The notes below the pieces were generated by a model that was given only the letters and a program-made list of their open reading frames with translations, searched no databases and was not told the origin of the DNA. Position numbers and translations under genes: made by a program. Below are positions 57,978 through 61,121 of a stretch of DNA of 64,000 nucleotides, piece after piece. The first letter of the stretch is position 1, and each line of letters opens with the position of its first letter. The DNA is from Proteinivorax hydrogeniformans (GTDB lineage Bacteria; Bacillota; Proteinivoracia; Proteinivoracales; Proteinivoracaceae), in the NCBI RefSeq assembly GCF_040515995.1, contig NZ_CP159485.1, forward strand, positions 1,488,001 through 1,552,000, in the 5' to 3' direction.

Positions 57978-59198
57978 ATGTACAGAAAAAATATCATGGT
58001 ATATGGTATAGCTCTATTTACTACTTTTATGGCTATTTCTATGGTTTTGTTCCCAGAAAATGCTTTCGAAAGTGCCTTAGAAGGTTTAAATCTTTGGTGG
58101 AATGTAGTATTCCCAGCTTTGCTCCCTTTTTTCATGGTTGCACAATTATTGATCGGATTAGGAGCTGTTCATTTCATGGGCGTACTGTTGGAGCCTTTTA
58201 TGCGACCGGTATTCAACGTTCCAGGATCCGGTGGTTTTGTAATGGCAGTGGGTTTGGCCTCAGGGTTCCCACTAGGTTCAGTTCTTACAGCAGATGTACG
58301 CAAAAAAAACTTAATTAATAAAACAGAAGGAGAAAGACTCGTTTCCTTCACTAACACAGCAGACCCACTATTTATGTTTGGTGCTGTAGCAGTTGGGATG
58401 CTAGGAAGGGTTGAGATGGGGATTTTAATTGCCGTTGCCCATTACCTTTCTTCAATCTCTGTAGGAATTATTATGCGTTTTTATAAGATGAATGCACCAA
58501 AGACAGTCCAGCAAGATAAAATCAAACGAAACATTCTAATTAAAGCATTACTTGCTTTAAAAAAAGGCCGGGATGAAGATGGTAGGTCATTTGGAAAACT
58601 CTTAGGTGATTCAGCAAAAAAGTCCGTCAATACGCTTTTAGTGATTGGTGCCTTTATAGTAATGTTTTCTGTAATGATAGAAATTTTGTTAAATGTAGGT
58701 GTTATTGATTTGATTGCAAATGCCTTACTTAAGTTTTTAGGTCCCTTAGGAGTTAACTTTGAGCTTTTAGTCGCTTACATAAGTGGTATTTTTGAGGTTA
58801 CCTTAGGATGCCAAAAGGCAGCAGAAGCAGCTATGGTATCACCCACTGCTCAAATGGTTGCAATTAGTTTTATAATTGCATTTAGCGGACTTTCAGTAAC
58901 AGCTCAAGTTGCCAGTATGATCGGAGATACAGATATTAGCATCAAACCTTTTATAATAGCAAGAATAATACATGGATTTTTAGCGGGGCTTTATACATAC
59001 CTATTAGTCAAGTTTGGAATGTTTAAACTTGTTCCACAGGCAATTCCAGCCTTTTTTGCCCAAACGCCAAGCTTTTCTATAGATTTTTTGATTATTAGGT
59101 TCGTAATTTTTAGCATTCCAATTCTACTAATGTTGTTAGTGATACTGGCTTTTTTAATATACAAGACCACTAAACTTGTAGCGTTTAGAGTTAAGTAG
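57978..59198 (+). CDS. ylbJ: Sporulation integral membrane protein YlbJ
   Basis: YlbJ is needed for spore-cortex formation and is made under sigma-E in the mother cell of B. subtilis. The 406-residue protein has about 8-10 membrane segments in a nucleoside-transporter-like (Gate) fold, with GSGGFVMAVGLASGFPLGS and FTNTADPLFMFGAVAVGML. CATATTAT in the upstream gap (about 57930) resembles a sigma-E -10 element, but no clear -35 box is seen. It converges on coaD with 5 bases between stops. Confidence 0.92.
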   Translation: MYRKNIMVYGIALFTTFMAISMVLFPENAFESALEGLNLWWNVVFPALLPFFMVAQLLIGLGAVHFMGVLLEPFMRPVFNVPGSGGFVMAVGLASGFPLGSVLTADVRKKNLINKTEGERLVSFTNTADPLFMFGAVAVGMLGRVEMGILIAVAHYLSSISVGIIMRFYKMNAPKTVQQDKIKRNILIKALLALKKGRDEDGRSFGKLLGDSAKKSVNTLLVIGAFIVMFSVMIEILLNVGVIDLIANALLKFLGPLGVNFELLVAYISGIFEVTLGCQKAAEAAMVSPTAQMVAISFIIAFSGLSVTAQVASMIGDTDISIKPFIIARIIHGFLAGLYTYLLVKFGMFKLVPQAIPAFFAQTPSFSIDFLIIRFVIFSIPILLMLLVILAFLIYKTTKLVAFRVK

Positions 59199-59209: not shown

Positions 59210-59692
59210 ATCTAAGTGCCCAAACTTTTCTTTTAAGCTCCATTCAACATGCCCCGGAACCAGCTCTTTTACACAACCATCCCATTTGGCAATTTCCTTT
59301 ACCAAGCTAGAGCTTAAAAAGGAATATTGATTGTTAGTCATCATAAACAAAGTTTCAACATTTTTTTCTAGCTTTTTGTTTATTGAGGCCATTTGAAGCT
59401 CGTATTCAAAATCAGAAACTGCCCTTAAGCCTTTTACAATTACGTTAGCACGGTATTTTGCGCAGTAATTAACTAATAGCCCATCAAATGTATCTACAAT
59501 TACATTATCAAAATCTTTAGTTGCTTTTATTAACATATTAACTCGCTCTTCTTTACTAAATAACGGCCTTTTATTTGAGTTATGTGCTACAGCTACGATT
59601 ACACTGTCAAAAGTTTTTGTCGCTCTTTCAATTATATCTAAATGCCCATTAGTAACAGGGTCAAAGCTTCCTGGATAAACAGCCTTAGTCAT
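59204..59692 (-). CDS. coaD: Phosphopantetheine adenylyltransferase
   Basis: CoaD makes dephospho-CoA from phosphopantetheine and ATP. The 162-residue protein shows the nucleotidyltransferase motif [16 protein letters not shown] and the ATP loop [11 protein letters not shown]. It overlaps rsmD by 8 bases, the universal rsmD-coaD order. Confidence 0.98.
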
Positions 59693-60260
59693 TATTACAT
59701 CCCCTTTTTAATAAACCATTTTTTTTATAAACAGAAATTGTTGTATCACCATATAGCTTTTGCTTAAATAAAGTAAAGTAAGCTATTGAGGCACAAACTT
59801 CTTCATTTTTGCTATGCTCTATTACCACAATACCATCATTATTAAGAAGGTCTTTCTCCTTAACATCATCCATCATCTTCTGAGCTAACCCTCTATTATA
59901 GGGAGGATCTATAAAAATACAATCGTACTTTTCTTCATTTTTAATAACTTTGTATACATCTCCCTTTATAAGGTTAAACTTTTTGCTCTCAAAGCCTAAT
60001 TTGTCAAGATTTTCTTTTAAACACTTATAACTTAAATAGTTTAATTCTACAAATTTACAAAATGATCCTCCGCGACTTAAAAATTCTATACCCAGGCCGC
60101 CACTTCCAGCAAAACAATCAAGTGCTTTAACTTCACTTGACATTAGAGGGGCAATCATGTTGAAAATAGCTCCTTTAACTTTTCCAGAAGTTGGGCGGGT
60201 ATTGGTTCCTTTAATATTTTTTATTGGGAATCCTTTTTTGTCCCCTGCTATTACTCGCAT
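59685..60260 (-). CDS. rsmD: 16S rRNA (guanine-966-N2) methyltransferase RsmD (YlbH)
   Basis: RsmD methylates G966 of 16S rRNA. The 191-residue protein starts at the ATG at 60260 behind GAGGTGA, giving [10 protein letters not shown]. It shows [16 protein letters not shown], the SAM loop [17 protein letters not shown], and the catalytic DPPYNRG. Its upstream region holds the probable csfG RNA on the other strand. Confidence 0.96.
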
Positions 60261-60341
60261 TTTTTTCACCTCGCCTTTTGATTTTACCACAGTTGTTTTA
60301 TCCCTTCAAATTCCAATATATTTTCCAAAATTTATTTTTTT

Positions 60342-60372
60342 TGTATAAATGAGGAGTACTAGGGACAGTATA
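60342..60372 (+). promoter_or_regulatory. Candidate forespore promoter of csfG
   Basis: TGTATA (60342-60347), 18 bases and CAGTATA (60366-60372) weakly resemble a sigma-G type promoter on the plus strand and would start the RNA near 60380, exactly at its first helix. The -10 box fits only partly, so this is tentative. Confidence 0.35.
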
Positions 60373-60377
60373 TATAT

Positions 60378-60535
60378 TGAACCGGAGAGTTGCCGCAAAG
60401 ATATTTTCCCCAAAATCTTTGCAGCATCATAACCATTTCCCCATAACTCTTCCTCCGGTTTCTCCTCTCCCAGACCGGCGGCCCCCACCGCCGGTATATT
60501 AAAGGGATGCACCTTTTAGATGCATCCCTTTTTTA
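60378..60535 (+). ncRNA. csfG: Probable CsfG sporulation small RNA
   Basis: Between rsmD (ylbH) and the spore protein genes is a GC-rich structured region unlike its AT-rich surroundings. On the plus strand it forms a long stem AACCGGAGAGTT (60380-60391) with AACTCT (60445-60450) and CCGGTT (60455-60460). Next come an inner hairpin GCAAAGA...TCTTTGC with a CCCC loop, an 8-bp hairpin ACCGGCGG/CCGCCGGT with loop CCCCCA, and a terminator with six T. The pyrimidine-rich loops and the place beside ylbH match, from memory, the CsfG RNA of endospore formers, made under sigma-F and sigma-G in B. subtilis. Orientation is inferred from the T-run and C-rich loops. Confidence 0.68.
60501..60534. terminator. 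Bidirectional terminator between csfG and spore protein gene
   Basis: AAAGGGATGCA (60501-60511) pairs with TGCATCCCTTT (60521-60531), 11 bp, with a 9-base loop and a T-run on the plus strand. It ends the csfG candidate and can also serve the minus-strand spore protein gene, whose stop is at 60540. Confidence 0.85.
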
Positions 60536-60539
60536 TAAG

Positions 60540-60857
60540 TTAACTCATTTGGTTTTGTTGAGTTTGCTGGGTTTGTTGAGTAATTTGTTGAGTTGAAGGA
60601 GATTCTTGCATCGTAGCTGGCTTTGGAGTTGTTCCATTAGACATATTGCTTTCAGCCATCTCGATTAGTCTCTTAACCATTTGACCACCTATTTGGCCAA
60701 CTTCATAAGGAGACATGTTAGCGTATCCTTGAGTTTGAATTTTTTGATTTAAACCCAGTTCTGTAGCTACTTCGTTCTTGAGATTTTCCAAAGCTTGCTC
60801 AGCTTGTGGAACAAGAACTTTTTGACTTTCAAATCCTTGCTGTCTTTCTGTTCTCAT
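60540..60857 (-). CDS. Alpha/beta-type small acid-soluble spore protein with Gln-rich tail
   Basis: SASPs coat and protect spore DNA. The 105-residue protein shows the DNA-binding pattern TELGLNQKIQ and YEVGQIGGQMVKRLIEMAE. It is longer than the usual 60-75 residues because of a C-terminal tail rich in Gln, Thr and Ser (about residues 78-105). It lies 33 bases after a second SASP gene and is probably cotranscribed in the forespore. Confidence 0.93.
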   Translation of the reverse strand: MRTERQQGFESQKVLVPQAEQALENLKNEVATELGLNQKIQTQGYANMSPYEVGQIGGQMVKRLIEMAESNMSNGTTPKPATMQESPSTQQITQQTQQTQQNQMS

Positions 60858-60890: not shown

Positions 60891-61121
60891 TTATCGGTTT
60901 CCATTACCACCATTTAACTGTTGTTCAGCATCTTGAATCATTCTTTTAACCATTTGGCCACCTATTTGACCTACTTCTCTAGTTGTCATGCTATTCCATC
61001 CACCACTTTGGATTTTCTGATTTAACCCAAGTTCAGAGGCTACTTCATACTTATATTGATCTAGCATTTGTTCTGCACCTGGAACTACAGAGCGTCTTCT
61101 ACGTCTAGAATTACGAGCCAT
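60891..61121 (-). CDS. Alpha/beta-type small acid-soluble spore protein
   Basis: The 76-residue protein is a typical SASP with EVASELGLNQKIQ, GWNSMTTREVGQIGGQMVKRMI, and a short Gly/Asn tail. The N-terminus is unusually basic (NSRRRRRSV). It has a strong AGGAGGTGA ribosome site. The SELGL stretch is where the germination protease GPR cuts the family. Confidence 0.95.
   Translation of the reverse strand: MARNSRRRRRSVVPGAEQMLDQYKYEVASELGLNQKIQSGGWNSMTTREVGQIGGQMVKRMIQDAEQQLNGGNGNR

Follow-up and report, generated by a model that had tools for sequence, protein, structure and literature searches.

The GC-rich element located at positions 60378-60535 (plus strand) of the window, that is, the whole stretch of 64,000 nucleotides of Proteinivorax hydrogeniformans DNA analyzed in this work, is identified as the gene of the small RNA CsfG, with a probability that we set at roughly 0.95. 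CsfG is an already known RNA, produced within developing bacterial spores, and the one described here is a further, strikingly conserved orthologue, about 120-158 nt long according to the 3′ end used, recognized from the stability of its fold, its identity to relatives, and the presence of an invariant core. If identity, plus strand, and the sigma-F/sigma-G class of its promoter are considered jointly, the whole reading is still very likely. The finding confirms csfG in a clostridial-type lineage that is missed by the Rfam gathering threshold, and adds computational evidence, independent of northern blots, that Rfam has placed its "ylbH leader" on the wrong strand.

Composition and structure of the element

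The element lies in a 250-nt gap flanked on the left by rsmD and on the right by two genes for alpha/beta-type SASPs, all on the minus strand. The rsmD (ylbH) gene (59685-60260), encoding the 16S rRNA G966 methyltransferase, matches TIGR00095 with 150.9 bits (cut-off 117.5); its reading frame is open up to a GTG at 60290, the ATG at 60260 being the likelier start. The two SASP genes (60540-60857, convergent with csfG, and 60891-61121) match PF00269 with E values of 6e-20 and 1e-23, in agreement with the neighbours named in the initial annotation, and the short open reading frames of the gap (60306-60512 on the minus and 60157-60348 on the plus strand) gave no Pfam match. The GC content, described at the outset as far above that of the surroundings, is indeed 0.49 (0.54 across 60378-60495) versus 0.36 in the whole window, a value matched by only 0.05% of 158-nt windows.

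The folding of the plus strand (60378-60536) yielded -58.0 kcal/mol (z = -9.1), and none of 200 shuffles was equally stable. The minus strand of the element is also stable (z = -7.4); since both strands fold well, the strand is not decided by folding alone. The predicted plus-strand structure consists of the helices P1, P2, and P3 followed by an 11-bp hairpin with T6, which bears out the fold initially described, and its C-rich stretches are mostly unpaired. In place of the three C-rich loops reported by the initial annotation, four single-stranded C-rich stretches were counted, namely TTCCCC at 60406-60411 and again at 60437-60442, TTTCTCCTCTCCCA at 60459-60472 (whose first bases belong to P1), and CCCCCA at 60482-60487.

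P1 (60379-60461) is formed by the pairing of 60379-60390 with 60446-60449 and 60454-60461, and its outer eight pairs are GAACCGGA/UCCGGUUU. These pairs form in all ten class members (100% paired; 62.5% at best if the alignment is slid by one column), and a formal pair count revealed no compensatory change in them among the same ten members, because the 3′ arm of P1 belongs to the invariant core. In a second family P1 has a different inner part, in which the pairing is retained (GUUAAGGG with CCUUUAAC in L150, GAAGGG with CCCUUC in L151). As to the covariation analysis that had been suggested as a check, the helices are retained across the class, but formal P1 covariation is nil, its 3′ arm being invariant.

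The P2 hairpin (60391-60426; 60391-60402 paired with 60415-60426), whose loop is UUUUCCCC, is confined to this lineage, and the CCCC of this loop is not retained in G003 and G004. It is followed in the predicted fold by an unpaired C-rich stretch around AUUUCCCCAU (60432-60445); CCCCATAA is retained in most Bacilli and Clostridia, and CCCCAU, ahead of the P1 3′ arm, is unchanged in most loci. The invariant core TCCTCCGGTTTCTCCTCTCCCA (60451-60472) spans 22 nt, the second half of which is unpaired. A core variant, CTTCCTTCAATTTCTCCTCTCCC, was observed in G094, G240, G353, G386, and G402 (families f67 and f139), its P1 half being altered and its unpaired half intact.

The P3 hairpin (60474-60495; 60474-60481 paired with 60488-60495, with the C-rich loop CCCCCA) varies in sequence between lineages and cannot be aligned column by column, so that the presence of a hairpin was compared with shuffled sequences: of 146 loci, 75% have a hairpin of at least eight pairs immediately 3′ of the core, versus 12% of shuffles. 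Lastly, an intrinsic terminator (60501-60534) is formed by a perfectly paired 11-bp hairpin (60501-60511/60521-60531) and T6 (60529-60534). The convergent SASP gene probably uses this hairpin too, in the reverse direction; the scan for sigma-70 promoters and terminators missed it, its loop being longer than the scan permits. All these features lie on the plus strand.

Orthology and gene neighbourhood

A DNA search of 61 genomes revealed an identity of 94% within the same genus and of 84-85% within the family over 130-145 nt, and beyond the family the short core is present in most other families tried. The exact core TCCTCCRGTTTCTCCTCTCCC was retrieved from at least 118 GTDB stretches of Bacilli and Clostridia (one genome per species), with carriers as far apart as Bacillus, Brevibacillus, and Alicyclobacillus on the one side and Syntrophomonadaceae and Thermoanaerobacterales on the other. 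As a sporulation RNA, CsfG is conserved very widely. When 76 diverse loci were aligned with MAFFT, RNAalifold derived no consensus from them, their 5′ domains being unalignable; the distribution of the element was therefore established with a mismatch pattern rather than a covariance model.

The neighbourhood is conserved as well. The rsmD gene is divergent from the core and within 700 nt of it in 137 of the 148 loci with enough flank (neighbours assigned by tblastn). Past rsmD lies coaD and then, in the window, a gene for a YlbJ-family sporulation membrane protein (57978-59198; TIGR02871, 350.7 bits) adjoining coaD and rsmD, an order that matches ylbH-ylbI-ylbJ of B. subtilis. Bacilli and Clostridia share the 22-nt core and, next to it, a divergent rsmD, and the same core in the same place indicates that the element is the CsfG orthologue, as originally claimed.

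In B. subtilis, the gene of CsfG is flanked by ylbG and ylbH (Marchais et al. 2011, as cited in PMC3574147 and PMC8216469; PMC4409812 is cited as further literature on this RNA). The two RNAs have in common the core sequence, the opposite-strand rsmD (ylbH) neighbour, a sigma-F/G-type promoter, CU-rich unpaired regions, 3′ terminator hairpins, and the confinement to spore formers. Unlike its B. subtilis counterpart, however, the RNA described here has an additional P2 stem-loop with UUUUCCCC inside P1, an AACCGGA/UCCGGUU clamp in P1, and, on its other flank, convergent SASP genes where B. subtilis has ylbG.

Link to sporulation

The distribution of the core, allowing up to three mismatches, was examined in an even set of 398 genomes of the phylum, 179 of which carry the core and 340 SpoIVA. 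All the 179 core-bearing genomes are spoIVA-positive, so that the core occurs in 179 of 340 spoIVA-positive versus 0 of 58 spoIVA-negative genomes (Fisher P = 2e-17, a value overstating the number of independent events since the genomes are related); this agrees with the idea, already put forward in the initial annotation, of an RNA conserved in endospore formers. Moreover, in several families the members devoid of SpoIVA are also devoid of the core and their relatives carry both, examples of the joint absence being G399 (f88), G112 (f25), G179 and G323 (f13), and G374 (f55). The pattern undercounts the RNA, which is carried with four mismatches by G006 and G010, the latter a 90% complete assembly scored as SpoIVA-negative. 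Nearly half of the spoIVA-positive genomes sampled (161) have no recognizable core, entire families (f18, f82, and f95) among them.

The genome to which the window belongs harbors hfq and a sigma-G gene above the respective curated cut-offs and a sigma-F-like gene below it. In G000, sigG is located at 1591745-1592506, and a second sigma-G-like gene (G000:C1:2714160-2714918) scored 360 bits, below the cut-off.

Promoter, strand, and the ylbH leader

A sigma-F/sigma-G-type promoter is recognizable on the plus strand at 60343-60372, with GTATA (60343-60347), an 18-nt spacer, and CAGTATA (60366-60372), so that transcription is expected to start near 60378; it coincides with the promoter previously surmised near 60342-60372. 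Scanning 147 loci ahead of the core with GNATA-N17-19-CATNNTA, which we take to be the sigma-F/sigma-G consensus, gave a score of at least 8.5 in 64% of them versus 8% of shuffles (eightfold), and the stronger motif (score of at least 9) in 29% of loci versus 0.4% of shuffles. Intrinsic terminators located 3′ of the core in 147 loci are oriented forward in 97 and backward in 38 (forward only in 71, backward only in 12), the backward ones being consistent with the convergent SASP genes. The non-Watson-Crick positions in P3 stems (26 G-U, 10 A-C) also point to the plus strand; those of P1 (7 G-U, 11 A-C) do not favor it. In B. subtilis, a northern blot revealed the CsfG strand only, the supposed ylbH leader being unseen (PMC3574147). 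On these grounds, and on that of the separate rsmD promoter motif described below, CsfG is with high probability transcribed from the plus strand, i.e., the strand opposite to rsmD, in line with the initial proposal.

At the gathering threshold, Rfam gave no match anywhere in the window. Its sole match is to RF00516 ("ylbH leader"), on the opposite strand, with 42.8 bits over the full model (gathering score 50; E = 1.1e-7 in a 621-nt search and 1e-5 in 58.8 kb), and G001-G004 scored 33.6-48.7 bits. Thus, the covariance-model search that had been recommended did find a match, but below the gathering threshold and on the mirror strand. RF00516 and the element share locus and sequence family; however, the model was built on the opposite strand and named a leader, and it describes the mirror strand of CsfG in the window (60417-60536) as well as in L163, L161, and L017. 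Three Bacilli-like loci (115, 92, and 66 bits) are the only ones among the 20 tried that reach the gathering score, and clostridial csfG loci score 33-49 bits or are missed; the model is tuned to Bacilli, which explains why the member in the window falls below 50.

According to its Rfam name, the element would be a cis-regulatory 5′ leader of rsmD transcribed from the minus strand, and both the Rfam model and the good minus-strand fold speak in its favor. We consider this very unlikely, since a putative extended -10 promoter of rsmD, TGTGGTAAAAT on the minus strand (60281-60291), lies outside the RNA element and between it and the start codon. On the minus strand, 100 of 156 loci have a motif of this class some 150 nt upstream of the core (12 expected; 6 on the plus strand), and an rsmD mRNA starting from it would not contain the element. 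In addition, the T-tracts and the sigma-F/G promoter are oriented the opposite way, the northern blot mentioned above detected only the CsfG strand, and the core is strictly nested in the distribution of sporulation genes, to which rsmD does not belong. Even less credit can be given to the idea that the region only terminates transcription in both directions, by means of GC-rich hairpins that separate convergent units, and has no RNA function. The 60501-60531 hairpin might well serve either direction, but the 22-nt core is conserved phylum-wide upstream of any terminator and together with an enriched promoter motif, and the B. subtilis orthologue is expressed (PMC3574147); the probability of this explanation appears close to nil.

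Possible mode of action of CsfG

As the csfG gene of this spore former, the element would be transcribed rightward in the forespore by RNA polymerase carrying sigma-F and, later, sigma-G, from the promoter at 60343-60372 with a start at about 60378, and the transcript would end at either the P3 hairpin or the 60531 terminator. The RNA would then fold into P1, which encloses the lineage-specific P2, followed by P3 and the terminator, displaying as C/U-rich single strands AUUUCCCCAU, UUUCUCCUCUCCCA, and the CCCCCA loop. These strands might pair with the GGAG/GGGG Shine-Dalgarno sequences of several mRNAs, thus blocking their translation, the core strand considered for this pairing being UCUCCUCUCCC. 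Hfq would probably aid the pairing of CsfG with the mRNAs; CsfG of B. subtilis was co-immunoprecipitated with it (PMC3574147).

This mode of action has been put forward by analogy with RoxS/RsaE and FsrA, which are likened to CsfG by features, not by sequence: like the RNA described here, they are structured Firmicute sRNAs with C-rich single-stranded regions, whereas they are under vegetative control (ResDE, Fur) and their mRNA targets are known. The blocking of Shine-Dalgarno regions by CsfG seems somewhat more probable than its opposite. The introduction of PMC12456014 (2025) states that CsfG regulates mRNAs, citing the discovery paper, and the accessible literature shows no published mRNA target or role for this RNA. 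Searching five genomes of the family for 14-15 nt complements of the unpaired stretches, with up to two mismatches, revealed no excess over reversed-pattern controls. The complementary sites common to G000 and G001 fall mostly within coding sequence or repeats and, in view of this and of the lack of enrichment, no target supports the mechanism; this search for long sites speaks neither for nor against pairing through short seeds.

A different possibility is that CsfG acts chiefly via a conserved protein or the ribosome, as an anti-Shine-Dalgarno-like decoy or sequestering RNA, rather than via mRNA targets. Indeed, the conserved core, one half of which is unpaired, varies less than one would expect of a sequence that pairs with drifting mRNAs, complementary sites are not enriched, and the core contains CCUCC, a sequence found also in the 16S anti-Shine-Dalgarno. 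Nevertheless, RoxS and FsrA, C-rich sRNAs of the same type, target mRNAs (PMC8216469), Shine-Dalgarno sequences are conserved too, and short seeds would escape 14-15 nt patterns; we therefore regard this mode of action as rather improbable.

Since UUUCUCCUCUCCCA stays nearly invariant from Bacilli to Clostridia while P3 and the 5′ arm change their sequence, one can also speculate, with considerable doubt, that UUUCUCCUCUCCCA binds one ancient and equally conserved forespore partner, which may be a single universal spore mRNA or a site on the ribosome or on a protein. If this were true, CsfG would not be merely another multi-target C-rich sRNA. The separation of the invariant parts (CCCCAU and the unpaired UUUCUCCUCUCCCA) from the changeable ones narrows the search for a partner.

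Atypical csfG loci

Some loci depart from the common arrangement. In L126 and L166, csfG immediately adjoins coaD with no rsmD match in between, which suggests that the RNA stays in place where rsmD is absent or unrecognized. Two stretches titled Acetobacteraceae and Desulfovibrio (L087 and L088) embed csfG and rsmD of spore-former type, and are probably mis-binned metagenome contigs. Two core matches were detected in G060, G251, and G333. In addition, G115 harbors a second csfG copy away from rsmD (L154, core at 1267 on the minus strand of that locus; compare L153), which has its own hairpins and a promoter-like GTATA-N18-CACAATA and is a possible paralogue.
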